DNA of 16,608 bases, from contig CAMVBD010000001.1 in assembly GCA_947165615.1 (NCBI GenBank), positions 1 through 16,608 of the forward strand. Direction: 5' to 3'. This stretch comes from an uncultured Clostridia bacterium. Its GTDB lineage: Bacteria > Bacillota > Clostridia > Oscillospirales > Acutalibacteraceae. The notes below the pieces were generated by a model that saw only the letters and a program-made list of their open reading frames with translations, was not told the origin of the DNA and ran no database searches. Below are positions 1 through 10,092 of the stretch, in pieces. A program made the position numbers and the translations under genes. Numbering within the stretch: the stretch's first letter is position 1; each line of letters opens with the position of its first letter.

Positions 1-1
1 G

Positions 2-853
2 TTCGGCGTGTCCACCGATTACCTTTTAAAAGATGATCTCGAAGCAGAGCCCGGACGGGGAGAGGCGATCCCCGAGGACGCGGGCGTGAAGCTGAGGCGC
101 GTGTCCATGGGAGAAGCCCAGTCGTTTTTGATGTACCGGGATCTGGTTTCCCGCCGCGTGCCGCTGGGGGTACTGTTCTGCATCCTGTCTCCGGTCGTGC
201 TGCTGCTGCTCGGCGCGCTCAGGGAGGGCGGCCTTTTGCCCCTTTCCGAGCAGGCGGCGGTCGGGATCGGCCTGCTGGTCCTCATCCTGCTGGTCGGCGG
301 TGCGGTCGCGCTGTTTGTTGTGACGGGCCTGTCCGGCAAGCCCTTCGAGTATCTGTCCAAGGAGCCCTTTGAGACCGAATACGGCGTCGACGGCTTTGTA
401 AAAGAGAGACGGGACCGCGAGCGCGGCACGTTTGCGGCGTTTTTGGTCAGCGGGATCGTATTGTGCGTATTGTCCGCCGTGCCGATCTTTGCGGCAATGA
501 TCCTTCCTTCGACGAACGAGGCGGGCGAAGCGCCGCGCTACGGCGTCGCCGTGTCGCTTTTGCTGGTCATGGTCGGCGTCGGCGTGTATCTGATCATTCG
601 CGCTTCGGTGCGCCGCGACAGCTGCGCCATTCTGCTGCAGGAGGGCGACTATTCCGAGGAGAAAAAGGAAGAACAGAAGCGGACCCAGACCTTGTCCGCC
701 GTGTACTGGGGCGTTGTGACCGCGGGATACCTCGGCTACAGTTTTGTGACGATGGACTGGAAAAGAAGCTGGATCGTCTGGCCCGTGGCGGCGGTGCTCT
801 ACGGCGTCGTAGTCGCGATCTTTACGGCGGTGAAAAAGAACGGCGGCAAATAA
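2..853 (+). CDS. XRE-family regulator with C-terminal membrane domain, 5'-truncated by the window edge
   Basis: The reading frame is open from base 2 and begins FGVSTDYLLKDD. That is the typical last helix and exit of an XRE (HTH_3) DNA-binding domain, which commonly ends in FGVS-DYLL before a linker. The GTG at 8 is therefore an internal valine codon, and the true start with the HTH lies left of the window. After a charged linker of about 35 residues the protein has about six hydrophobic segments, near window residues 50-70, 85-105, 142-165, 178-200, 230-250 and 255-275. A long charged cytoplasmic stretch containing EEKKEEQKR lies between the fourth and fifth. It ends in a lysine-rich tail. 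Membrane-tethered XRE regulators with this plan are common in Clostridia; their signals are mostly unknown. No clear terminator follows. The partial HTH is seen directly; the regulator role is inferred from it. Confidence 0.8.
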   Translation, partial: FGVSTDYLLKDDLEAEPGRGEAIPEDAGVKLRRVSMGEAQSFLMYRDLVSRRVPLGVLFCILSPVVLLLLGALREGGLLPLSEQAAVGIGLLVLILLVGGAVALFVVTGLSGKPFEYLSKEPFETEYGVDGFVKERRDRERGTFAAFLVSGIVLCVLSAVPIFAAMILPSTNEAGEAPRYGVAVSLLLVMVGVGVYLIIRASVRRDSCAILLQEGDYSEEKKEEQKRTQTLSAVYWGVVTAGYLGYSFVTMDWKRSWIVWPVAAVLYGVVVAIFTAVKKNGGK

Positions 854-905
854 AGCCCAAAATATGAACGAATCGTGAATTTTTGCGGACACACGGAAAT
901 TAAGG

Positions 906-934
906 TGGCAAACGGAAACCGGATGTGATACAAT
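906..934 (+). promoter_or_regulatory. Promoter of the HAD phosphatase gene
   Basis: The -10 hexamer TACAAT at 929-934 is preceded by TG at the extended -10 position. A weak -35 TGGCAA lies at 906-911, 17 bp upstream. An in-frame GTG at 925 lies inside the -10 region, so it cannot be the start of the downstream gene. Confidence 0.6.
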
Positions 935-947
935 ATCCTTCGCCTTT

Positions 948-1006
948 GCGCCGGGAATGCGGCAAAACGGAACCCCGGCGCCGAAAAACGGAGCGGAGAC
1001 CCGCTC
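948..1006 (+). other. Two hairpins in the HAD gene leader
   Basis: The untranslated leader between the promoter and the ATG at 1027 contains a perfect 8-bp inverted repeat (948-955 with 974-981, GCGCCGGG arms). A second 6-bp stem with a 4-base loop follows (991-996 with 1001-1006, GAGCGG arms). There is no U-tract, so this is not a terminator. I recognise no riboswitch class; it may stabilise the message or simply be GC-rich leader. Confidence 0.35.
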
Positions 1007-1026
1007 TATCAGAAAGGAAGAAGAGA

Positions 1027-2217
1027 ATGAACAACATCAAAACCTGGAAGATCCTGACCGCCGTGCTGCTGTGCGCTCTGTTCGCGGTCAGCTGTCTGTA
1101 CGGCTTCGGCGTGGGCATGAAAAAAGACGCCCCGGCGACGCCCGGCGAGCAGACAAGCGAGCAGCCCGCTTCGTCCTCTGAGCCCGGTTCGGTCCCCGCG
1201 GGCGACGACGCGCCGGCAAGCGAGGAGCCGAAGACCGACGGCGAAAGCATGCTGTCCCTGTGGGCAGCCGATGCCGCGTCCAAAAAGGCGCTGATCGAGT
1301 ACGTCGAGACGGTCACGGACGAGACGAGCGAAAACTTTATCCCGGTCGAAAACCGCGTGGCGGTGTTCGATCTGGACGGCACGCTGTTCTGCGAGACCGA
1401 CCCCAACTACTTTGACTATACCCTGCTCAAGTACCGCGTGCTCGAGGACCCCGATTACATCGACAAGGCCTCCGACTTTGAAAAGGAAGTCGCGAACAAG
1501 ATCAAGGAGCAAAACGAGACCGGCGCGTCCTTTAAGGGGCTGGAGGTCGACCACGGCAGAGCCGTCGCCTCCGCCTTTGCCGGTATGACCGTCGAGGAGT
1601 TCAACGCCTACATTCAGGAGTTCAAAAAGCAGCCCATGCCGAGTTACGAGGGCATGAACCGCGGCGACGGCTGGTATCTGCCCATGCTGCAGGTCGTCGA
1701 ATACCTCAAGGCCAACGATTTTACCGTCTACGTCGTCAGCGGCACCGACCGCTTCATCGTGCGCGGGATCGTGGACAACTCCCCGCTTCATCTCCCCATG
1801 GGGCAGATCATCGGCTCCGACGAAACGCTGGTCGCGCCGGATCAGGGCGATGCCGACGGCCTCGATTACGTCTATGACGACAACGACAAGCTCGTCCTCG
1901 GCGGCGAGTTCATCGTCAAGAACCTCAAGATGAACAAGGTCACCGTCATCATGCAGGAGATCGGCGTGCAGCCCGTGCTGTCCTTCGGCAACTCCACCGG
2001 CGACGCCAGCATGGCGGAGTACACGACGAGCGGCAACAAGTATCTGAGCCTTGCCTTTATGCTCTGCTGCGACGACACCGAGCGCGAAAACGGCAACGAG
2101 GAAAAGGCGCAGAAGATGGTCGACCTGTGCGCCGAGTTCGACTGGGTCCCGGTCTCCATGAAAAACGACTGGACCACCATCTACGGCGACGGCGTCACCA
2201 AAAAGGCCGCCGAATAA
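1027..2217 (+). CDS. Secreted or membrane-anchored HAD-superfamily phosphatase
   Basis: The 396-residue protein starts at ATG 1027, after the purine-rich site GGAAGAAGAG. Upstream in-frame starts lie in the promoter. Residues 8-30 are hydrophobic. Cys23 lies in AVSC, an imperfect lipobox, so a lipoprotein or an uncleaved anchor are both possible. Residues 35-72 are a Pro/Ser/Glu-rich linker typical of surface proteins. The catalytic core carries HAD motif I FDLDGT (nucleophile Asp115, Asp117), motif II VVSGT (Ser238), probable lysine motif III around 298-304, and motif IV GNSTGD (Asp326). This order, with a large helical insert after motif I, resembles phosphoserine-phosphatase-like (type I cap) enzymes. 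The substrate is unknown; an extracellular phosphomonoester is plausible. Its last 30 codons recur as a fragment at 4853-4945. Confidence 0.85.
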   Translation: MNNIKTWKILTAVLLCALFAVSCLYGFGVGMKKDAPATPGEQTSEQPASSSEPGSVPAGDDAPASEEPKTDGESMLSLWAADAASKKALIEYVETVTDETSENFIPVENRVAVFDLDGTLFCETDPNYFDYTLLKYRVLEDPDYIDKASDFEKEVANKIKEQNETGASFKGLEVDHGRAVASAFAGMTVEEFNAYIQEFKKQPMPSYEGMNRGDGWYLPMLQVVEYLKANDFTVYVVSGTDRFIVRGIVDNSPLHLPMGQIIGSDETLVAPDQGDADGLDYVYDDNDKLVLGGEFIVKNLKMNKVTVIMQEIGVQPVLSFGNSTGDASMAEYTTSGNKYLSLAFMLCCDDTERENGNEEKAQKMVDLCAEFDWVPVSMKNDWTTIYGDGVTKKAAE

Positions 2218-2252
2218 ACCGGACCTGTACAAAAAGACCGCCGTCGGAGTTT
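2125..2252 (+). repeat. Direct repeat, copy 1: HAD gene tail plus terminator (partner 4853-4980)
   Basis: By direct alignment these 128 bases match 4853-4980 except at three positions. All three are synonymous third-codon changes (ACC/ACG, GTC/GTG, AAG/AAA). The repeat covers the last 30 codons of the HAD gene, its stop and the left arm of its terminator. The two copies are 2728 bp apart and flank the AT-rich lipase region. Confidence 0.95.
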
Positions 2253-2273
2253 TTCCGGCGGCTTTTCCTTTTT
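2236..2273 (+). terminator. Rho-independent terminator of the HAD gene
   Basis: GCCGTCGG (2240-2247) pairs with CCGGCGGC (2255-2262) with one G-U pair. The hairpin is followed by a T-rich run TTTTCCTTTTT. Confidence 0.85.
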
Positions 2274-2292
2274 GCCGGATGGAGAAAGCATT

Positions 2293-2358
2293 TACAAAAA
2301 CCGCTTTTTCTGTCGAAATCGAGTCCGGGCTTTCAGGCTTGCCAAGCCGGAAAAATAA
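2293..2358 (+). pseudogene. Decayed 3' end of a lipid-kinase gene, paralogous to 7165-8073
   Basis: These 66 bases align with the last 66 bases of the intact kinase gene (8008-8073), both ending in TAA. Matching blocks include a 14-base run at the start (TACAAAAACCGCTT), an 11-base run TCGAAATCGAG, and CTTGCC plus GCCGGAA near the stop. One insertion and one deletion shift the frame in the middle, so the encoded tail is scrambled. There is no room for the rest of the gene: the HAD terminator lies just upstream. The following terminator (2433-2467) also matches the one after the intact kinase, which makes chance similarity unlikely. It is probably non-coding now. Confidence 0.75.
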
Positions 2359-2432
2359 ATATAAGAAAGTGGGCCGCCGGGACGTCGGCTCCCGCGGTGC
2401 GTCAACCGAACCCGGCGTTTCGCCGACAACAG
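2359..2432. other. GC-rich insert between kinase-tail stop and its terminator
   Basis: The intact kinase gene has only about 7 bases between its stop and terminator, whereas here about 74 bases intervene. The segment has a GC-rich core with GTCGGC/GCCGAC arms about 35 bases apart and no start codon with a ribosome site. I do not recognise it; it may be a small repetitive-element remnant or junction debris. Confidence 0.4.
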
Positions 2433-2467
2433 AAAAAAGGAGCGGATCTTCAAAAGTCCGCTTTTTT
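2433..2467 (+). terminator. Terminator matching the lipid-kinase terminator
   Basis: AGCGGA..CTT pairs with AAGTCCGCT around a CAAA loop and is followed by TTTTTT. The core GCGGANCTTCAAAAGTCCGC also occurs at 8086-8105 behind the intact kinase gene. It isolates the lipase promoter from upstream transcription. Confidence 0.85.
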
Positions 2468-2535
2468 ACACAACAGACCGCATTTGTATAAATCTGATTA
2501 CTTTTTTCAAAACTGTATAACATGAGACAAAGGGG

Positions 2536-2563
2536 TTGCTTCTTTTTCCGAAAGGGCTATAAT
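2536..2563 (+). promoter_or_regulatory. Promoter of the lipase / small membrane protein operon
   Basis: TTGCTT (2536-2541) and a perfect TATAAT (2558-2563) are separated by 16 bp. The composition turns AT-rich from about 2470 on. The rest of 2468-2535 shows no gene. Confidence 0.75.
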
Positions 2564-2568
2564 AAAAG

Positions 2569-2609
2569 TTCCAAATAACAAAGTATAGAGTCAAGATAGT
2601 TATTTGGAA
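2569..2609 (+). promoter_or_regulatory. Perfect 11-bp inverted repeat just downstream of the lipase -10
   Basis: TTCCAAATAAC (2569-2579) is exactly complementary to GTTATTTGGAA (2599-2609), with a 19-base spacer. It begins about 6 bases after the -10, so it spans the transcription start and early leader. It could be an operator, or an mRNA hairpin that sequesters or protects the 5' end. No U-tract follows the right arm, so a terminator is unlikely. Confidence 0.6.
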
Positions 2610-2622
2610 AAGAAAGGAGTCA

Positions 2623-2727
2623 ATGTCTAAAGAAAGTGCAAAATTCAGACATGCACTGAAAAACTATTCTATAAAGGGAAGAAAAAATGGTGAAGAAAGA
2701 AAAAAGTTTAAAAAGGAAAAACACTAA
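2623..2727 (+). CDS. Possible 34-residue leader peptide overlapping the lipase start
   Basis: ATG 2623 follows AAAGGAG by only 3 bases, which is closer than usual. The frame runs 34 codons to TAA at 2725-2727, overlapping the first 14 codons of the lipase gene in another frame. The product would be very basic and Lys-rich, starting MSKESAKFRHALKN. It could couple translation to the lipase. Equally, the AGGAG may be fortuitous in an AT-rich leader. I recognise no family. Confidence 0.25.
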   Translation: MSKESAKFRHALKNYSIKGRKNGEERKKFKKEKH

Positions 2728-4345
2728 AAGAGTTGGATCTCTTATAATTGCCGTACTGTTGGTTGTAGCATATTTTTCTCAAAGTAGTTCTGTCATAATA
2801 AAAAGTTATGCCGCAGCCGCAACAAAAAACAAAGCAATTGTTATTATTCCTGGAATTGCAGGAAGTTCCCTTGAAACTATGAGCGGTGATCATATTTGGC
2901 TCACTACCGATATAAATAAATTAATGCAAATGGAATGCAATGAGGATGGGACAAGTATTAATGAGTTAAGGAACAAAAAAGGTGATATTCATCTTATTGA
3001 ACTCGGATGTTTACGTCTTGAAACTTCTCTCATATTCTATTTTGGCACAAAGTATGATGTTAAATTATTCACATATGATTGGAGATTAAGTTGTTCAGAA
3101 GCAGCTATTAAACTTCAACAATTGGTCCAACCATATTCCGAGGTGATAATTGTTGCGCATAGTATGGGAGGATTGGTCGCATCCAAGTTTTTGGCTAATT
3201 CCAGTGAGAATCGAGCCAAAGTTTCAAAAGTGATTGCGATCGGAACGCCTTTTACGGGATCTGTTAAAGGCTTATATGTCATGGAAACCGGTGAATTTGC
3301 TTCTATTGCTTCAGGGCTGAATGATACATTTAAGTCATTAGCCAAAAATTTTCCTGCTGTATATGAGTTACTTCCTACAAAGGACTATCTAAAAGGGAAT
3401 GATCCATATATAAGTAAAACGCAAACCAATGGAGTGGAACAAACTCTTAGTACGCATGGACTGTCTTGGAGTTATATGAGAGGAAGACCGTGGGGGAGAA
3501 CGTCTTCAAACTTGGTTAAACCAATGTTCGGTCGAGCGCAGTCTTTTCATAATTCTTTAGTTGTTAATGGTTCTCACATCGCGAACGGTTTGTTAACAGA
3601 GTATCACATGATTATTGGGTTTGGACAGGATACTCCCTCCAGAGTTATTTATAATTCGGATGGCACGATTAAAAAGTACGAACTGAATAACAACGGAGAT
3701 GGAACTGTAACGACAGCGAGTGCGGTGTACAATAGAGGGTCAAACACAGTATTGCACGTTAGAGCATCTCATACTGGATTAACTTGGAATACTTCCGTAA
3801 GAGATATGGTAATAGAAATAATAAAAGGGACAGGCTCTTCTATTCCTAGTACGGTTAGTAAAAACTCTGATAAAAGCAAAGAATTATACCCGACTAACGA
3901 AAAAGGATGGCTAATAGGAGAGGATAATAATAGAACGGAAGTACTTGTTTATTCGGGGAAACTTGATAGAATGAGGAATTCAAAGGGAGAAGAATTAAAA
4001 ACAATAGGAAATACGATCTTTCTCGAAAAAGAAGACGGTTCCAGGGAAACGTATGGTACGGTTTGGTCTTTGGGCAATCATTCCTATCAGTATTCGTTTC
4101 TCAACAAAGAAGTCTCGTATGAAGTTGTTCCCGAAAAAAATACAGAGGCGGAAATGGTTGTTTCCTATATGTCAGACGGTTATTATACAAAATCTTTATC
4201 CGCTTCCGATATTTCCTCTGCATTTAGCATGATTGTCTCAGATAATAATGGGAAAAACATTGCAGTTGAAAATGAACATAAGACTTCTGTGGTGTTTGTT
4301 GAATCAACAGACGAGGAATTAGCGGAAATGAACAATACGAGGTGA
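2687..4345 (+). CDS. Secreted LCAT-like lipase/acyltransferase (alpha/beta hydrolase)
   Basis: The 552-residue protein starts at ATG 2687, preceded by AAAGGGA at good spacing. A basic N-terminus and hydrophobic stretch (residues 17-44) ending KSYAAA indicate a signal peptide. The lecithin:cholesterol acyltransferase fold is indicated by IIPGIAGSSL (52-61, oxyanion region), the family-typical YDWR (130-133), AHSMGG with nucleophile Ser159, GDGTV with Asp338, and SHTGL with His362. Order and spacing fit a complete Ser-Asp-His triad. Residues 380-552 form an additional, probably beta-rich C-terminal region that I do not recognise. Likely activity is hydrolysis or acyl transfer on glycero- or phospholipids outside the cell; the substrate is unknown. 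The gene is strikingly AT-rich: 21 of 60 bases are G/C at 3001-3060, against 43 of 60 at 7501-7560 in the kinase gene. This suggests recent acquisition. The next gene starts 7 bases after the stop. Confidence 0.85.
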   Translation: MVKKEKSLKRKNTKRVGSLIIAVLLVVAYFSQSSSVIIKSYAAAATKNKAIVIIPGIAGSSLETMSGDHIWLTTDINKLMQMECNEDGTSINELRNKKGDIHLIELGCLRLETSLIFYFGTKYDVKLFTYDWRLSCSEAAIKLQQLVQPYSEVIIVAHSMGGLVASKFLANSSENRAKVSKVIAIGTPFTGSVKGLYVMETGEFASIASGLNDTFKSLAKNFPAVYELLPTKDYLKGNDPYISKTQTNGVEQTLSTHGLSWSYMRGRPWGRTSSNLVKPMFGRAQSFHNSLVVNGSHIANGLLTEYHMIIGFGQDTPSRVIYNSDGTIKKYELNNNGDGTVTTASAVYNRGSNTVLHVRASHTGLTWNTSVRDMVIEIIKGTGSSIPSTVSKNSDKSKELYPTNEKGWLIGEDNNRTEVLVYSGKLDRMRNSKGEELKTIGNTIFLEKEDGSRETYGTVWSLGNHSYQYSFLNKEVSYEVVPEKNTEAEMVVSYMSDGYYTKSLSASDISSAFSMIVSDNNGKNIAVENEHKTSVVFVESTDEELAEMNNTR

Positions 4346-4352
4346 AGCCATA

Positions 4353-4778
4353 ATGAAAAAGCAAAAAGAGCCAAACGCCGGTCCTGTACGTGGCTACGTT
4401 CATTTTGTAAAACTTGTTATTGTGATTGCAAGCCTGCTGGGGTGCGTTTTGACGATTCTCGCGCGGTTGAAGGATGAAACAACGCTTTTTGATCCGATTA
4501 CAAAAGCCGACCCGATCGTCTTTCAGTCGTCGGCGTTTCACGGCGCGGTCGCGCTGATCTTTGTCGCCGTGGCGGCCTTGCTTATTCTGCTGGCGCTGTA
4601 TTTTTTGGGAAAAATCGATTTCGGAACGCTTGCAAAGCCCTATTTTTTGTCGGTCGCCGCGCTTGTTTCCCTGTTTTTGATCCTGTTTCTCTTTGTCCTG
4701 TTCCCCTTGTTTTGCTGGATCGTCGATCTGATCATCACGCTTATTTCTTTCGGCGCTTCGCAGTTTTTGTTCCACTGA
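4353..4778 (+). CDS. Small hydrophobic membrane protein, unknown function
   Basis: The 141-residue protein starts at ATG 4353, after GAGGTG, 7 bases beyond the lipase stop, so the two are almost certainly co-transcribed. It has three or four hydrophobic segments (about 19-40, 63-90, 98-118, possibly 118-132), a charged N-terminus, and the C-terminal motif CWIV..I....I..GASQF..H. I recognise no domain. Base composition shifts from lipase-like AT-richness to the GC-richness of the host within its first 100 bases. This suggests the membrane protein belongs to the resident genome and the lipase was placed in front of it. A diverged copy of its tail survives at 8131-8205. A role in anchoring or exporting the lipase is possible but not shown. 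Confidence 0.7.
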   Translation: MKKQKEPNAGPVRGYVHFVKLVIVIASLLGCVLTILARLKDETTLFDPITKADPIVFQSSAFHGAVALIFVAVAALLILLALYFLGKIDFGTLAKPYFLSVAALVSLFLILFLFVLFPLFCWIVDLIITLISFGASQFLFH

Positions 4779-4816
4779 GATGAAGACCATTCATTCCTTG
4801 GGAAAGGATATGTTTT

Positions 4817-4834
4817 AAGGGGCTGTCCCCTTTT
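4817..4834 (+). terminator. Terminator of the lipase operon
   Basis: AAGGGG (4817-4822) pairs with CCCCTT (4827-4832) around CTGT and runs into TTTTG. Confidence 0.65.
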
Positions 4835-4840
4835 GTATCG

Positions 4841-4861
4841 TAGGGGCGCACACTGTGCGCC
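4841..4861. repeat. REP-like palindrome at the mosaic junction
   Basis: GGCGCACA (4845-4852) and TGTGCGCC (4854-4861) form a perfect 8-bp palindrome around one base, preceded by TAGG. From memory, GTAGGGGCG...CGCC intergenic palindromes are frequent in Oscillospiraceae-type genomes. The right arm CTGTGCGCC is at the same time the first nine bases of the duplicated HAD tail, so the breakpoint lies within this short shared sequence. Confidence 0.6.
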
Positions 4862-4945
4862 GAGTTCGACTGGGTCCCGGTCTCCATGAAAAACGACTGG
4901 ACCACGATCTACGGCGACGGCGTGACCAAAAAAGCCGCCGAATAA
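4853..4945 (+). pseudogene. Truncated second copy of the HAD phosphatase gene (last 30 codons)
   Basis: The fragment corresponds to residues 367-396 of the protein encoded at 1027-2217 and ends at the same TAA. It has three synonymous differences and no amino-acid change. A TAG lies in frame at 4841-4843, and no start with a ribosome site is present, so it is not a gene. The complete absence of missense changes suggests the two copies diverged while both were translated and that this copy was cut off later. The alternative is a very recent duplication with too few changes to judge. The neighbours are a lipase-operon terminator on the left and the convergent GH43 gene on the right. Confidence 0.9.
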
Positions 4946-4965
4946 ACCGGACCTGTACAAAAAGA

Positions 4966-4998
4966 CCGCCGTCGGAGTTTACCGGCGGCGGCTTCATT
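4966..4998. terminator. Hairpin between the HAD tail fragment and the convergent GH43 gene
   Basis: GCCGTCGG (4968-4975) pairs with CCGGCGGC (4982-4989), the same stem as the HAD terminator. The loop is shorter and the T-tract poorer (CTTCATTTTT). Being immediately after the GH43 stop, it may now terminate that minus-strand gene. Confidence 0.55.
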
Positions 4999-4999
4999 T

Positions 5000-6304
5000 T
5001 TATTCGGTCTTTTTGAAAAACAGGGCGTCGAGTTCGCCCGGGGCGTCCCCGCAGCCGGTGACCGTCAGCGTGACGCCGAAGAGCCCCGCGTCCGCTATAA
5101 ACGAACCCGTTTCCTCCTTTAAGTCCTCCGTCGCCGGAAGCGGCAGGTCGAGGACGTGCCGCTTCCCGAGGGTCAGACGCAGAACGCCGCCCGCCGGAAA
5201 CCGGTGCCGCAGGGTCAAGGCGTACGTTCCTTCGGAAAACCGGGCGGGCGTGAACGCAAAGCCCGCGCCCGCGCTCAGTCCCACGGCGGGGTGCCGGCCG
5301 TCCTCGGTCTCGGTGACGTACGCCCCGCCGAAAAACCGGCAGGCGTTGACGGGACTTGTAAGGGATTCCGGCAAAAGGGTCTTTACAAAGCCGTTGGTGG
5401 TGGGAAAGGCCTGCTTTATGACGCCGTTTTTTTCGTCGACCTCCAGTTTTTCGACTCTGGCGCGGCGGGAATAGCAGGACCGGTTTGAGGACGCGTGGTA
5501 AAAAACGAACCAGTCGTCGGCGATCTTGCAGACGGAGCCGTGGTTGTTCCACGTTTCGGGGTCCAGCCCGTCGTTGTCGATCACCGTGCCCATTCGGACG
5601 TACGGCCCGTAGGGGGAGGGGGCAAGGGCGTAGTCGAGTTTTGTCGGCCTGCCGCCGCGGTTGGGACAGGCTTCGGTGTATTCCGAGGCGTAGATCATGC
5701 AGTACCGGTCTCCGAGTTTTTTCAGCGACGAGCCCTCATGAAAGCCCTCTTTTCCGTCGTCGTTGGTCAAAACGTCCGTGTGCAGCGTTTCGGGCTTTAA
5801 GGTGCACAGATCGTCCCCGAGCTCCGCCACGTTCAGATGAAACTGCCCCCACGTGTAGTAGCGTTTGCCGCCGGCGGACAAAAGGGACGGGTCGCTGCCC
5901 CGGATCGACTCACCGGCGAGCGTGATGCGCCGGGCATTCCCCAAGGGACCGGCGGGGGAGTCGCTTTCGGCAACGCCCTCGCTGCCGTCGGACAGGCAGA
6001 AAAAGAGATAATATTTTCCGTTGTGATACAAAGCGTCCGGCGCGTAAAGGTCGGCGTCCGACCACGGCACAGCCGCCGTCGAAAAACTGACGCCGTGGTC
6101 CGTCCAATCCGTCAGGTCCGAAACGGGCGCCGAAAAGGCGCGGTATTCCTTGGAGCAGTAGCCGCCGCCAAAGCGGTCAAGTGACCCGTACAGCCAGACG
6201 CGGGACCCGAAGACCTTGGGCTCCCCGTCGGGGACGTAGGTTGAAAAATCTAAAAAGGGATTGAGCCCCGGTGTGCGGGGGACGGGGGGAAAGACGTTTT
6301 TCAT
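5000..6304 (-). CDS. Cytoplasmic GH43-family glycosidase (arabinofuranosidase/xylosidase type)
   Basis: The 434-residue protein has its start chosen at the ATG at 6304-6302, which follows GGAGGG by four bases. The 18 extra upstream codons would run through the -10 element. The five-bladed propeller signatures of GH43 are present: an N-terminal PDGEPKVFG..VWLYGS stretch with candidate base Asp26, APD (Asp90, likely pKa modulator), FHEGSSL with candidate acid Glu190, and the NNHGS block near 253-257. The C-terminal 110 residues look like a beta-sandwich accessory domain. There is no signal peptide, so it would act on imported arabino- or xylo-oligosaccharides. Exact specificity cannot be assigned. 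It is a single-gene unit with its own promoter, divergent from the YhhN-kinase pair. No transporter or sugar regulator is next to it in this window. Confidence 0.85.
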   Translation of the reverse strand: MKNVFPPVPRTPGLNPFLDFSTYVPDGEPKVFGSRVWLYGSLDRFGGGYCSKEYRAFSAPVSDLTDWTDHGVSFSTAAVPWSDADLYAPDALYHNGKYYLFFCLSDGSEGVAESDSPAGPLGNARRITLAGESIRGSDPSLLSAGGKRYYTWGQFHLNVAELGDDLCTLKPETLHTDVLTNDDGKEGFHEGSSLKKLGDRYCMIYASEYTEACPNRGGRPTKLDYALAPSPYGPYVRMGTVIDNDGLDPETWNNHGSVCKIADDWFVFYHASSNRSCYSRRARVEKLEVDEKNGVIKQAFPTTNGFVKTLLPESLTSPVNACRFFGGAYVTETEDGRHPAVGLSAGAGFAFTPARFSEGTYALTLRHRFPAGGVLRLTLGKRHVLDLPLPATEDLKEETGSFIADAGLFGVTLTVTGCGDAPGELDALFFKKTE

Positions 6305-6340
6305 AAAGCCCTCCGGTTTGCGGCGACAGCCGTTTTTTTG

Positions 6341-6369
6341 ATTGTAGCAGAAACGCACAAAAAAGGCAA
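6341..6369 (-). promoter_or_regulatory. Promoter of the GH43 gene
   Basis: Read on the minus strand: TTGCCT (6369-6364), a 17-bp spacer, and TACAAT (6346-6341). The leader before the ATG at 6304 is about 30 bases. Confidence 0.75.
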
Positions 6370-6409
6370 GCAGGACGCCGGAAAACGCGGGATTTTGGGA
6401 AAAAGCCTC

Positions 6410-6438
6410 TTTTCAAACGAAAAAAACTGTGCTATATT
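6410..6438 (+). promoter_or_regulatory. Promoter of the YhhN-kinase operon
   Basis: A weak -35 TTTTCA (6410-6415) and a -10 TATATT (6433-6438) are separated by 17 bp, 42 bp before the ATG. Confidence 0.5.
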
Positions 6439-6479
6439 GAAAACAGGGAAGATCCATTATCCGAACGGGAGGTCTTTTT

Positions 6480-7145
6480 ATGCTGCCGTACGTGTTTTTA
6501 GCGCTGTTTCTTCTTGTCAGCGCCTTTCATCTTTACGACTCCTGGACCGACAGCGCCCGCCGCCGGGCGTACACCAAGCCCTTTCTACTGATCCTTTTGC
6601 TGCTCTATTACGTTTTTTCGGCAGGGGACGCGTTTTCGTGGGTGCTGGCCTCGGCGCTTTTGACCAGCTGGCTCGGCGACGTGCTGCTGATCCCCAAGGG
6701 CAACAAGTGGTTCGTTTCGGGCGGGATCAGTTTTCTTGTCAGCCACGTCCTGTTCATTTTCGTCTATCTGCCGCGCGTGCAGTGGGACAAGGTGATTCTT
6801 TGGGTCCTGATCCCGGCGGCGCTGGTCTATGCGGGCGTCTCGGTGGCGGTCACGCGCGCCATCCGTGAAAAAACGCCCAAAATGATGCTCGTGCCCCTGG
6901 CGCTGTATCTTCTGACCAATTCCACCATGAACCTCTTCGCCCTGTCGCAGCTCATGACCCTGAAAAGCGCCGGGGCGGTCGTGGCTTACATTGGCGCGGT
7001 GTGCTTTTTTGCCTCCGACTGCACGCTGTATCTTGTCCGCTACCACAAAAAGGAAGACCTCATTTTCAAAAAGCACTTCACGGTCATGCTGACCTATCTC
7101 CTCGGCGAGGCGCTGATTACGGTCGGCATGCTGTTGATCGGATAA
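6480..7145 (+). CDS. YhhN/TMEM86-family membrane protein (putative lysoplasmalogenase)
   Basis: The 221-residue protein starts at ATG 6480, preceded by GGGAGGTC. It is hydrophobic almost throughout, with about seven to eight membrane segments. The YhhN family signature is visible: WLGDVLL (residues 63-69, conserved Gly-Asp) and, about 12 residues later, FVSGGISFLVSHVLF with a conserved His. A further Asp (Ser-Asp-Cys) in a late helix also fits. Characterised members hydrolyse the vinyl-ether bond of lysoplasmalogen; many bacterial members are untested. Plasmalogens are common in anaerobic Clostridia, so this function is reasonable here. The lipid kinase starts 19 bases after the stop, suggesting an operon concerned with lipid turnover. 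Confidence 0.85.
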   Translation: MLPYVFLALFLLVSAFHLYDSWTDSARRRAYTKPFLLILLLLYYVFSAGDAFSWVLASALLTSWLGDVLLIPKGNKWFVSGGISFLVSHVLFIFVYLPRVQWDKVILWVLIPAALVYAGVSVAVTRAIREKTPKMMLVPLALYLLTNSTMNLFALSQLMTLKSAGAVVAYIGAVCFFASDCTLYLVRYHKKEDLIFKKHFTVMLTYLLGEALITVGMLLIG

Positions 7146-7164
7146 CAGGAAAGGAGAACGCGCA

Positions 7165-8073
7165 ATGAAAATCGTATTCATCGTCAATCCCCATGCCGGC
7201 GCCGCGGACAACACCGCCCGCATCCGCTCCGCCGTCGACGCCCTGCCCGAAAAGGAGGACTGCGAGATCTACACGACCAAGGCCCCCGGCGACGCGACCG
7301 CGTACGTCAAAAGCTGGTGCGAAACGCATCCCGGCGAGGAAGTCCGCTTTGTTGCCTGCGGCGGCGACGGCACTCTCAACGAGGTCTTTTCCGGCGCGGC
7401 GGGACAGGAAAACGTCAGCGTTACCTGCTACCCCTGCGGCAGCGGCAACGACTTTGTCAAGGCCTTCGGCGGGGCCGAGACCTTTTCGTCCATCCCGGCG
7501 CTCATCTCCGCGCCCACCCGCCCGCTCGATCTCCTCAAGGTGGACGGCCGGTACGCCGACAACGTGGTCAACTTCGGTTTTGACACCACCGTTGCCATCA
7601 CCATCAACGAGGAGCGCGCCAAAACCGGGCACGGCAACAAAAACGCCTACACCAAGGGCGTCGTCAAAGCGCTCATGACCGCCATGAAGAACACCTTTAC
7701 CGTCAAGGCCGACGGCGAAACGCTGAATCCAAAGGGCAAGGCCCTTTTGTGCACCGTGGCAAACGGACAGTACGTGGGCGGGTCCTTCCGCTGCGCGCCG
7801 AGGGCCAAGACCGACGACGGGCTCATTGAAGTCTGTCTCATAAAGCCCATCTCCCGCCTGCGTTTTGTGCGAATCTTAAAGCCCTACACAAACGGCGAGC
7901 ACCTCGACCGCGAGGATATGCGCGACATTGTCGTTTACCGCCGCGCCAAAAAGGTGGAGGTCGAGGCGCCCGACGGCTTTGCGTTTTCGCTGGACGGCGA
8001 GATCGTCTACAAAAACCGCTTCACGGTCGAAATCGAGCCAGGCGCGCTGCGCCTTGCCGTGCCGGAAGAATAA
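7165..8073 (+). CDS. Diacylglycerol-kinase-family lipid kinase (YegS/DgkB type)
   Basis: The 302-residue protein starts at ATG 7165 after AAAGGAG. Family motifs are all present: an N-terminal VNPHAG nucleotide-binding turn, the signature GGDGTLNEV (66-74), PCGSGNDF (90-97) and RPLDLLKVDG (119-128). The length of about 300 residues is normal. These cytosolic enzymes phosphorylate diacylglycerol or related lipids with ATP and recycle diacylglycerol in Gram-positive membranes; exact substrate is unknown. It is co-transcribed with the YhhN gene and ends with a strong terminator. Its last 66 bases and terminator recur in decayed form at 2293-2467. Confidence 0.9.
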   Translation: MKIVFIVNPHAGAADNTARIRSAVDALPEKEDCEIYTTKAPGDATAYVKSWCETHPGEEVRFVACGGDGTLNEVFSGAAGQENVSVTCYPCGSGNDFVKAFGGAETFSSIPALISAPTRPLDLLKVDGRYADNVVNFGFDTTVAITINEERAKTGHGNKNAYTKGVVKALMTAMKNTFTVKADGETLNPKGKALLCTVANGQYVGGSFRCAPRAKTDDGLIEVCLIKPISRLRFVRILKPYTNGEHLDREDMRDIVVYRRAKKVEVEAPDGFAFSLDGEIVYKNRFTVEIEPGALRLAVPEE

Positions 8074-8080
8074 AAAACAA

Positions 8081-8112
8081 AAAGAGCGGAACTTCAAAAG
8101 TCCGCTCTTTTT
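8081..8112 (+). terminator. Terminator of the YhhN-kinase operon
   Basis: AAAGAGCGGA (8081-8090) pairs with TCCGCTCTTT (8101-8110), extended by CTT/AAG with one bulge, followed by TT. It is homologous to 2433-2467. Confidence 0.9.
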
Positions 8113-8130
8113 ACATACCTGACTGGTTTT

Positions 8131-8205
8131 TTCTTGCTCTGCTGGATCGTCGAGCGGAGCATCAGGTTTATTCCCGTCGGCGCGTCGCAGTTTATCCTGC
8201 ACTGA
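8131..8205 (+). pseudogene. Decayed 3' end of a small membrane protein gene, paralogous to 4353-4778
   Basis: The frame reads FFLLCWIVERSIRF then IPVGASQFILH and stops at TGA 8203-8205. The intact gene ends with the same CWIV, GASQF and final His. By my count 53 of 66 bases match from the Cys codon through the stop, and GAYGAAGAC just after the stop also matches. Only about 25 residues remain. Upstream lies the kinase terminator, without a start or ribosome site, so it is a relic. The next gene's promoter begins 34 bases later. Confidence 0.75.
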
Positions 8206-8238
8206 GACGAAGACGATGCGGCTTTTTTCTCCGGACGC

Positions 8239-8267
8239 TTGAATCCGCCCGCCGGGTCTGCTATAAT
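8239..8267 (+). promoter_or_regulatory. Promoter of the PPC-repeat dockerin protein gene
   Basis: TTGAAT (8239-8244), a 17-bp spacer and a perfect TATAAT (8262-8267). An in-frame TTG at 8239 is part of the -35 and is not a start. Confidence 0.85.
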
Positions 8268-8292
8268 CAAAGCGGAAAAAGGAGGAAACCGT

Positions 8293-10092
8293 ATGAAACG
8301 CAAATTTTTGAAAATTCTGTCTGTTCTTTTGGTCTTCGCGCTGCTTTGCTGCCTCGCGCCCGCCGTATCCTTTGCGGCGACCGTGAACGAGACCGAGAAA
8401 AACGACGATTACAGGACCGCAAACAAGATCCCGGTCGGCGATACGGTCAACGGCAACATCGCGGACTCGTGGGACGAGGACTGGTTTTGCTGTGAGCCCG
8501 CCGCCGACGGCTATCTGACGCTCCGGTTCGAGCATCATCTTGTCCTGAAGGAAAACGCCTATTGGCAGGTGTCCGTTTACCGCTTTACGAACAAACTGGA
8601 AGAGATCTTTTCTGACACGATGGAGGCGACCGATCTCGGTCTCATCCCGCGCGTCGGCGTCGAAAAAGGCGGGATCTATTACGTCGAGATCGACGGCGAC
8701 AACTACGGCAACGTCGACGGCGTGCCGTACAGTCTGAAAGTCACCCTGACCGAGACGCCCTATTGGGAGAAGGAACCGAACGACTCCTATTCCGCCGCGA
8801 CACAAATGGACCTCGGCAAGACCTACGGCGGAAACGTCTGGGACAAATCGGACGAGGACTACTTTCGGCTGACGCCGGACAAAAACGGCTACCTTTCCAT
8901 CGACTTCGGGTATGAGCCCGTCAAACAGGAGCATACCTACTGGACGGTGACCGTCTACCGGTTTACAAACCAACTGGAAGAGATTTTCAGCAAGGACCTG
9001 GAAGCCTCGGCGGTCCCCTCCATGCCGCACATCGGCGTTGAGGGCGGCGCGACCTATTACATTGAGGTCGACGGCGACAACTACGGCAACGTCGACGGAC
9101 GGGATTACAGTCTGACCGCCGCCTTTACCGCGACCGAATACTGGGAAGCGGAAAAAAACGACGACTACAAGACCGCGAAGCGGATCCAGGCAAACCGGAC
9201 CTACGGCGGCATGATCGGGGACACGGCGGACGAGGACTGGTTCAAACTGACCCCCGAACAAAACGGCTATATCACGATCGGCTTTACGTTTGACCTCTTA
9301 AAAGAGGAACGCGCCTACTGGGACGTGACGGTCTACCGCTTTACGAACCGGCTGGAGGAGATCTACGAAAAGACGGTTTACACGACGGACGCCGCCGCCA
9401 TGCCGCGCATCGGCGTTCAGAAAGGCGCCGACTATTACATTGAGATCGACGGCGACAACTACGGCAACGTCAACGAACGGGACTATCACCTGACCGCCGC
9501 CTTTGCCGTGACGGAATACTGGGAAGCGGACCCCAACGAAGGGTATCAGACCGCGAATCCCATCACGCTCGATACGCCCTACGGCGGCATGATCGGGTCC
9601 ACCGCCGACGAAGACTGGTTCAAACTGGTCCCCGGCAAGGACGGGTACGTGACGCTTGCCTTCGGGCATGAGATCCTGAACGTGGAAAACGCTTACTGGA
9701 ACGTCACGGTCTACCGCTTTACGAACCAACTGGAACGGATCGCCGAGGTATGGCCGGAAGCATCCGGAACCGAAGGCGTGCCGGCGTTCGGCATTGAGGC
9801 CGGCGGGATCTATTACGTCTCCGTGGACGGCGACGGCTACGGCAACGTCAACGACCTCGACTATACCCTGACCGCCCGCTATTCCGAGACCCTGTATTTA
9901 TTGGGCGATCTGGACTTTGACGGCAAGGTCACGGCGTCCGACGCGCGGCTTGCTCTCCGCGGCGCCGTGGGTCTGGAAACGTTTGACGCGACCCTGACCC
10001 GGATCGGCGACGTGGACTTTGACAAAAAGATCACGGCGTCCGACGCGCGGCTGATCTTACGCGCGGCTGTGGGTCTGGAAACGCTGGGTTAA
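8293..10092 (+). CDS. Secreted protein with four PPC-like repeats and a C-terminal type I dockerin
   Basis: The 599-residue protein starts at ATG 8293 after AAAGGAGGAAA. Residues 1-28 are a signal peptide with likely cleavage at SFA-AT. Four tandem repeats of about 125 residues follow (about 33-155, 156-281, 282-407, 408-530). Each begins with E-x-ND-x-Y-x-A, has an acidic DEDWF/DEDYF turn and a VYRFTN block, and ends IYY(V/I)-x-(I/V)DGD-x-YGNV. This resembles bacterial pre-peptidase C-terminal (PPC) domains, beta-sandwiches of secreted proteins. No catalytic domain is visible. The dockerin (about 535-599) has two calcium loops, D539/D541/D543/D550 and D573/D575/D577/D584, each followed by ARL.LR.AVGLE. 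The protein should dock onto a cohesin partner outside the cell, or the two dockerin loops may simply stabilise it. It is a single-gene transcription unit. Confidence 0.85.
   Translation: MKRKFLKILSVLLVFALLCCLAPAVSFAATVNETEKNDDYRTANKIPVGDTVNGNIADSWDEDWFCCEPAADGYLTLRFEHHLVLKENAYWQVSVYRFTNKLEEIFSDTMEATDLGLIPRVGVEKGGIYYVEIDGDNYGNVDGVPYSLKVTLTETPYWEKEPNDSYSAATQMDLGKTYGGNVWDKSDEDYFRLTPDKNGYLSIDFGYEPVKQEHTYWTVTVYRFTNQLEEIFSKDLEASAVPSMPHIGVEGGATYYIEVDGDNYGNVDGRDYSLTAAFTATEYWEAEKNDDYKTAKRIQANRTYGGMIGDTADEDWFKLTPEQNGYITIGFTFDLLKEERAYWDVTVYRFTNRLEEIYEKTVYTTDAAAMPRIGVQKGADYYIEIDGDNYGNVNERDYHLTAAFAVTEYWEADPNEGYQTANPITLDTPYGGMIGSTADEDWFKLVPGKDGYVTLAFGHEILNVENAYWNVTVYRFTNQLERIAEVWPEASGTEGVPAFGIEAGGIYYVSVDGDGYGNVNDLDYTLTARYSETLYLLGDLDFDGKVTASDARLALRGAVGLETFDATLTRIGDVDFDKKITASDARLILRAAVGLETLG
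8389..9882 (+). repeat. Four tandem ~370-bp coding repeats
   Basis: Units begin at about 8389, 8758, 9136 and 9514. DNA identity is high in patches: GACGGCGACAACTACGGCAA occurs in the first three units, and a single-base variant in the fourth. This makes copy-number change by recombination and assembly collapse possible. Confidence 0.85.

Follow-up and report, generated by a model that had tools for sequence, protein, structure and literature searches.

Incoming DNA can leave the end of a resident gene in two copies. In Escherichia coli, for example, duplicated lacZ ends of 109-950 bp have been attributed to a single crossover in which the incoming molecule was circular (PMC3240628). In homology-facilitated illegitimate recombination (HFIR), one end of the incoming DNA is joined by homology and the other illegitimately. 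The type VI secretion effector-immunity loci and the Rhs loci of Vibrio cholerae carry orphan 3' regions, for which the authors propose HFIR (PMC5361080), and transformation of Streptococcus pneumoniae produces merodiploids with head-to-tail second copies of chromosomal segments (PMC3784515). Here we analyse a contig of 16,608 bases from an uncultured Clostridia bacterium of the Acutalibacteraceae (CAMVBD010000001.1, hereafter the window), in which three genes, coding for a HAD-family hydrolase, a lipid kinase and a small membrane protein (MEM), each occur once intact and once as a 3' tail. We regard it as probable, though not strongly so, that two related copies of one segment, HAD-GH43-YhhN-kinase-lipase-MEM, meet head to tail here and that the locus is their joint. 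This assessment, which is drawn from the sequence, covers two histories taken together: an integration of related incoming DNA and an older tandem duplication.

The likeness to the described systems is partial. As in HFIR and single-crossover integration, incoming DNA would have left a partly duplicated gene end (PMC3240628), and the illegitimate joint, here called J2, lies in a microhomology (GTGCGCCG) within an element found uncut in two relatives. The difference is that here the event is deduced from a single contig and that two further deletions are required. Of each species one genome was compared, and the near-identical proteins P0005 and P0125 are known without genomic context; together with P0002, from a contig of at most 4832 bases, they point to further strains of this species or its nearest kin. 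The loci of V. cholerae share with ours the arrangement of new genes behind a conserved anchor, with the displaced 3' ends kept downstream (PMC5361080), but no secretion system, effector or immunity gene was seen here and the hosts are unrelated metabolic genes. The merodiploids of S. pneumoniae likewise hold head-to-tail second copies made by incoming DNA; those duplications, however, arise at repeats instead of microhomology, and their size is about 100-900 kb (PMC3784515). Integration and duplication events of these kinds are on record (PMC3240628, PMC5361080, PMC3784515).

The window is the entire contig C1, the largest among the 83 contigs of its own genome that were examined; the genome is a draft of 398 contigs and 1,996,802 bases, with an estimated completeness of 58%. 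The relics were delimited by comparing the window with itself. The features of the locus are as follows.

925..2217, plus strand: HAD-family hydrolase gene, intact (Pfam PF12710, E 4e-7; 1027 is an alternative in-frame start)
2125..2262, plus strand: HAD 3' tail and terminator, the end of the intact gene (96.4% identity to 4853-4989 over 138 columns, E 1.9e-59)
2255..2265, plus strand: joint J1, the overlap of HAD terminator and kinase coding sequence (CCGGCGGCTTT versus CCGACGGCTTT at 7970-7980, 10 of 11 bases in common, by direct reading and alignment)
2255..2359, plus strand: kinase 3'-end relic (75.5% identity to 7970-8074 over 106 columns, E 9e-13)
2435..2478, plus strand: kinase terminator relic (86.7% identity to 8079-8123, E 7e-8)
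2687..4345, plus strand: LCAT-type lipase gene, intact, A+T-rich (Pfam PF02450, E 3e-17)
4353..4778, plus strand: MEM, small membrane protein gene of 141 amino acids, intact, the partner of the lipase (relatives P0002-P0004)
4840..4861, plus strand: repeat element GTAGGGGCGCACACTGTGCGCC, cut at J2 (uncut copies at L162, L170 and L163)
4853..4989, plus strand: HAD 3' tail and terminator, second copy, starting at J2 (match to 2125-2262)
5000..6358, minus strand: GH43 glycosidase gene, intact, convergent with the second HAD tail (Pfam PF04616, E 4e-23)
6480..7145, plus strand: YhhN-family membrane protein gene, intact (Pfam PF07947, E 3e-31)
7165..8073, plus strand: YegS/BmrU-type lipid kinase gene, intact (Pfam PF00781 and PF19279; TIGR00147 above its cut-off)
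8079..8123, plus strand: kinase terminator, intact copy (self-comparison and direct reading)
8133..8217, plus strand: MEM 3'-end relic, consisting of the last 23 codons, the stop and about 12 bases (80.0% identity to 4706-4790 over 85 columns, E 1.8e-15)

The self-comparison returned four matches in this region, with E between 1.9e-59 and 7e-8 and thus far above chance; its remaining four lines are internal repeats of the gene at 8239-10092. All four matches are on the plus strand and colinear (2125 < 2255 < 4706 map to 4853 < 7970 < 8133). An earlier note on this DNA had described three 3'-tail relics of intact neighbours, and these are real. Its coordinates agree with ours to within about 10 bases; only the start of the kinase relic, given there as 2293, has to be moved to about 2255. 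The HAD gene is intact as it held, taken here from 925 instead of 1027.

In the first copy, the kinase tail and its terminator stand upstream of the lipase and MEM, and in the second the MEM tail lies directly behind the kinase and the matching terminator. An ancestral order kinase-lipase-MEM is therefore well supported by the arrangement of genes and relics. The proposal of the earlier note that two related copies of the segment suffered complementary losses is supported by this: copy 1 has kept the kinase tail with terminator, and copy 2 the MEM tail, placed behind the same terminator. Positions 925 to about 4861 form copy 1, in which a deletion from the HAD terminator to the kinase 3' end, at J1, would have removed the GH43 and YhhN genes and the greater part of the kinase gene. 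Copy 2 (4853-8217) would have lost the lipase and MEM except for the MEM tail, and its HAD gene would begin only at J2, by microhomology between the repeat element behind MEM and the interior of HAD. Two histories could lead to this arrangement. In history (i), two structural alleles, each already missing one part, came together when related DNA entered the cell and integrated on one side only or by a single crossover; the kinase and MEM losses then belong to separate lineages. In history (ii), the tandem duplication is older, the second HAD gene was cut away late and both losses took place in one chromosome. We lean slightly towards (i), because the second HAD tail is undecayed. As each gene survives once, no function need have changed, and as an instance of bacterial genome reshuffling the locus seems fairly ordinary, if a well preserved example. 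If the reading is true, short 3'-tail relics offer a way of tracing gene gain and the joining of alleles that needs one draft genome and no close relatives.

Both joints lie in microhomologies of 8-11 bases. That of J2, 8 bases long, can be followed through the repeat element, whose uncut form in G011 is GTAGGGGCGCACACCGTGCGCCGTTTACGGATGG (L162, minus strand); other copies in G011 and G009 likewise continue as ...GCGCCGTTT. The element of the window breaks off inside GTGCGCC and continues as HAD, whose own sequence at this point is CTGTGCGCCGAG.

The three pairs have not diverged equally. The earlier note had counted 125 of 128 identical bases in the HAD tails, and that stretch indeed holds 3 differences; over the full match the pair shows 5 differences in 138 columns (4 bases and one gap), against 24 in 103 for the kinase pair (P 4e-6) and 17 in 85 for the MEM pair (P 1e-4). 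These figures reject a single duplication followed by even decay, which is the earlier note's model stripped of its caveat, and they lead to that caveat, namely more than one event, or recombination involving a related allele. All three coding differences between the HAD tails are silent third positions (P 0.009 against 21% expected), such that the tails differ as two functional alleles would, on three sites only. In their last 90 coding bases, the identity of the two tails to each of 14 relatives' HAD genes differs by no more than 2. Both tails end in KAAE, an ending found in none of these 14, nine of which stop after the preceding KK or RK and five of which end otherwise. The second tail thus seems to come from the same species or close kin, and its lack of decay suggests that it was a functional gene end until recently or is a recent copy. 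Taken together, the near identity of the HAD pair, its exclusively silent coding changes and the decay of the kinase and MEM relics indicate that the HAD joint is young or that the second copy functioned until lately.

The kinase and MEM relics, by contrast with the HAD pair, appear to be old. In the kinase relic the last 34 codons are broadly preserved; it has two indels of one base each that compensate one another, and half of its 24 differences, 12, are non-silent. Its closest sequence is the window's own kinase (79 of 103 bases, versus 61-70 of 99-103 in 13 relatives), which rules out that the tail is the gift of another sampled species. A matching terminator is absent from the 130 bases 3' of these 13 relatives' kinases, as judged by eye. 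Used as a DNA query against 26 genomes of the genus, the kinase-relic region found only the window's own kinase and terminator and no strong third place; the exceptions are two matches of 29-33 bases to its HAD-terminator part (E 1e-4, in G022 and G006). In the MEM relic, 12 of the 15 coding differences are non-silent and some of them, on reading, place a charge in a hydrophobic stretch. Its end, VGASQFILH as translated by eye, is that of the relatives P0002 and P0003, while the intact gene ends in FGASQFLFH; the relic thus probably keeps the older form at this point. The MEM tail is not a dispersed repeat, as no third match better than E 0.001 was found in the 26 genomes of the genus, where a few matches of 17-38 bases appear only at E 0.001-0.1. 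We also observed that the MEM relative P0004, with an identity to the MEM of the window of 85% across 94% of its length and 80% over the whole alignment, has a C-terminus unlike it from about residue 120, a few residues from where the MEM relic begins (8133).

The surroundings of the homologous genes were compared in relatives. HAD has close homologues in 13 of the 25 other genomes of the genus. The sample comprised 14 close HAD loci (75-90% identity), 8 close GH43 loci (61-69%), 13 of 14 close kinase loci (73-85%; the partial gene of G020 was left out) and two near full-length LCAT genes; more distant homologues were not included with long flanks. Only one pair is conserved: YhhN adjoins the kinase, or in one case lies 1 kb off, in 12 of 13 loci, and the thirteenth contig begins inside the kinase gene. 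Three further kinase loci (L056-L058) hold the YhhN-kinase pair alone. Among HAD, GH43, kinase, LCAT and MEM, no two stand side by side in the relatives' stretches except LCAT and MEM. In G010, GH43 and HAD share a contig, about 5.8 kb apart and in a different order.

Several observations weigh against the joint of two copies. The order HAD-GH43-YhhN-kinase-lipase-MEM, which the earlier note would have taken as support if contiguous in a related genome, occurs at none of the 14 HAD, 8 GH43 and 13 kinase loci. Nor do the loci examined show a HAD-GH43, GH43-YhhN or kinase-lipase neighbourhood, although some of the relatives' contigs are short, which makes absence there weak evidence. We infer the six-gene block from this contig alone, and it would be lineage-specific at most. 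The repeat element has no close copy in the 82 other contigs of its own genome that were scanned, and about 70 bases between the stop of the kinase relic and its terminator (2360-2434) are without counterpart behind the intact kinase. The silent changes of the kinase relic exceed chance (12 of 24, P 0.006), so part of its divergence may predate the loss, when the gene was still working. The silent-change argument for the HAD tails concerns three sites, and with the other pairs pooled the contrast between silent and non-silent changes gives P 0.07, which is no more than suggestive. If the HAD tails are merely as old as two alleles, the divergence of the kinase would demand a structural split older than that of HAD. 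Finally, an apparently loose HAD end in another genome suggests that such ends can arise otherwise. This is a stand-alone C-terminus.

L077 (G018 contig C4) 1504-1776, minus strand: HAD C-terminus standing by itself (48% protein identity to residues 336-426 of the window's HAD)

No HAD match was found in the 1.5 kb upstream of it. It came from the HAD protein search; the HAD tail alone was used as a DNA query against its own genome only. The earlier note would have abandoned its model had the tails been scattered over many unrelated loci in relatives: the kinase and MEM tails are not so scattered, and for HAD there is this one case.

Other explanations account for parts of the same evidence. 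A simple tandem duplication, made in one chromosome in a single event, with reciprocal loss afterwards and decay at an even pace, would explain the colinearity, the complementary losses and the position of the junctions in microhomology. We hold it distinctly unlikely, however, as the HAD pair is far less diverged than the others and has only silent coding changes, and as both HAD tails are about equally distant from the relatives; it would require homogenising recombination between these tails. Alternatively, a piece of 2.6 kb (kinase tail, lipase, MEM and repeat element) could have been placed between HAD and GH43 in one step, either through template switching or as an illegitimate insertion, with duplication of about 138 bases of HAD. 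The segment 2263-4852 is indeed bounded by both HAD tails, with microhomology on each side, and the same anatomy of a gene, an extra gene and a tail recurs on contigs C17 and C61 and twice on C20. Still, the HAD tails are already 3.6% apart, and the MEM tail behind the intact kinase demands a separate loss. Such an insertion seems to us unlikely, and equally so that its source was a locus with the lipase and MEM behind a kinase.

A chimera, made during assembly from the haplotypes of two strains present in the metagenome, has to be considered for a draft of 398 contigs and 58% completeness, all the more since the joint of two copies is itself a proposal of two haplotypes of one locus. Yet the longest exact repeat within positions 1-8400 of the window measures 53 bases, inside the HAD tails, and J1 and J2 share only 8-11. 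Common assemblers generally finish with words longer than 53 bases. The shortness of the longest repeat makes a word-graph error less likely, and we consider a chimera quite improbable. That the relics are all 3' ends, two of them with terminators, could recall the insertion of a mobile element with target duplication, be it a transposon, an integrase-borne element or reverse-transcribed 3' ends of mRNA. No inverted repeat of at least 25 bases flanks the insert (shorter ones were not sought), and its two genes tested against Pfam are the lipase and MEM, with no recombinase or transposase among them (smaller open reading frames were not tested); we give this explanation hardly any credence. As for the copying of mRNA 3' ends by a reverse transcriptase, no RVT_1 protein was found in the genome at its 58% completeness, and this candidate was set aside.

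Under the joint of two copies, the loss in copy 2 would concern one unit, because the lipase and MEM belong together. The lipase exceeds the curated cut-off of PF02450 (63.4 bits versus 21) and has 37% G+C, compared with 56% for the window. MEM has no match among the models of Pfam or NCBIfam. With a profile built from MEM, P0002-P0004 and the relative on contig C56, we found a MEM-like gene directly 3' of an LCAT paralogue on contig C28 of the same genome, and another directly 3' of an LCAT gene on contig C36 of G009. Both LCAT genes are above the Pfam cut-off (49.6 and 49.1 bits, respectively). The lipase-MEM loci, in two species, are thus as follows.

Window 2687-4778: lipase and MEM described above
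L143 3724-5774: second lipase-MEM locus
L144 6377-8492: third lipase-MEM locus

The lipase has 36-37% G+C at all three loci, in surroundings of 54-56%, and MEM is intermediate (45-49%). Contig C56 (L146 5159-6552) contains no match to LCAT; its MEM-like gene comes instead about 165 bases after another alpha/beta hydrolase gene (BD-FAE, PF20434, E 2e-26), on the same strand. Each of the four MEM-like genes known here therefore stands behind a gene for an alpha/beta hydrolase. In G024, what follows the LCAT gene is another kind of membrane protein, without match to the MEM profile. From this gene order we conclude that the lipase and MEM are one two-gene module, so that the loss in copy 2 amounts to the loss of a single module. 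The locus thereby exposes an LCAT-type lipase and a small membrane protein without family model, together at unlike loci in two species of the genus.

The reach of the searches for MEM differs. Searched as a single protein in 98 relatives' genomes, it was found only in its own genome, on C1 and C56; since the MEM-like gene of G009 was found by the profile only, absence in this search is weak evidence. In 250 genomes of the family the profile matched its own genome only, at three places; two other members of the genus were listed there, G009 not among them. No MEM was found in plasmids or viral contigs. LCAT matches in plasmids amount to 20 records, all below 60% identity and none covering 80%.

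We also scanned for genes whose 3' end recurs on the same contig. In the 83 own contigs (744 kb) this gave 6 pairs, located on C1, C17, C20 and C61, with three of the 6 in the window. In 54 stretches from relatives (788 kb) it gave 2 pairs, each on a different stretch, so that there is no clear genome-wide excess of tail relics, and we rejected this idea. In five of the six own pairs the order is intact gene, extra sequence, tail; the kinase pair is reversed. Such an order would be expected under one-sided integration of incoming DNA, and also under a tandem duplication broken inside the gene on the left. It is conceivable, but we think rather doubtful, that this lineage repeatedly gains genes behind an existing gene by one-sided recombination, in which the host gene is preserved and a second copy of its 3' tail ends up on the far side of the new gene, the tails being footprints of the events. 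The A+T-rich pair of lipase and MEM would then be one such travelling module, in which MEM serves the enzyme as a partner or a protector in the membrane, a notion that we hold just as tentatively.

The relatives' pairs lie in L217, in proteins with dockerin-like repeats (by eye), and in L221. In the window itself, positions 8239-10092 hold a large gene in which one unit occurs four times, 378 bases apart, and which codes for a C-terminal dockerin domain. On C17 (L187 2234-4151), a WYL/WCX regulator is followed by an open reading frame of 234 codons without Pfam match and then by a 91% copy of the regulator's 3' tail. On C61 (L249 434-4428, minus strand), an M56-peptidase gene of BlaR1 type is followed by a hydrophobic open reading frame of 145 codons and a 90% copy of the gene's 3' tail with terminator, which apparently also includes the last codons of the convergent neighbour. 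The product of this 145-codon frame looks like MEM by eye, but it is absent from the profile matches up to E 10 and its only Pfam match, MFS_1, is below the cut-off; we do not count it as a relative of MEM.

Contig C20 (L190 977-8354) carries two adjacent tyrosine integrases, followed by XRE-M78 peptidase and PIN genes, DUF3990 and HTH genes, and a Fic gene. Between these groups lie isolated copies of the C-terminal tail of the second integrase (5427-5662 and 7182-7372); the copy at 7182-7372 is not among the six pairs of the scan. The locus looks like an array of toxin-antitoxin cassettes delimited by integrase tails. The tail has a match in 4 of the 25 other genomes of the genus. In G004 it is part of a full integrase, and in G015 it stands at the start of a contig, followed by an open reading frame that is Fic-like by eye.

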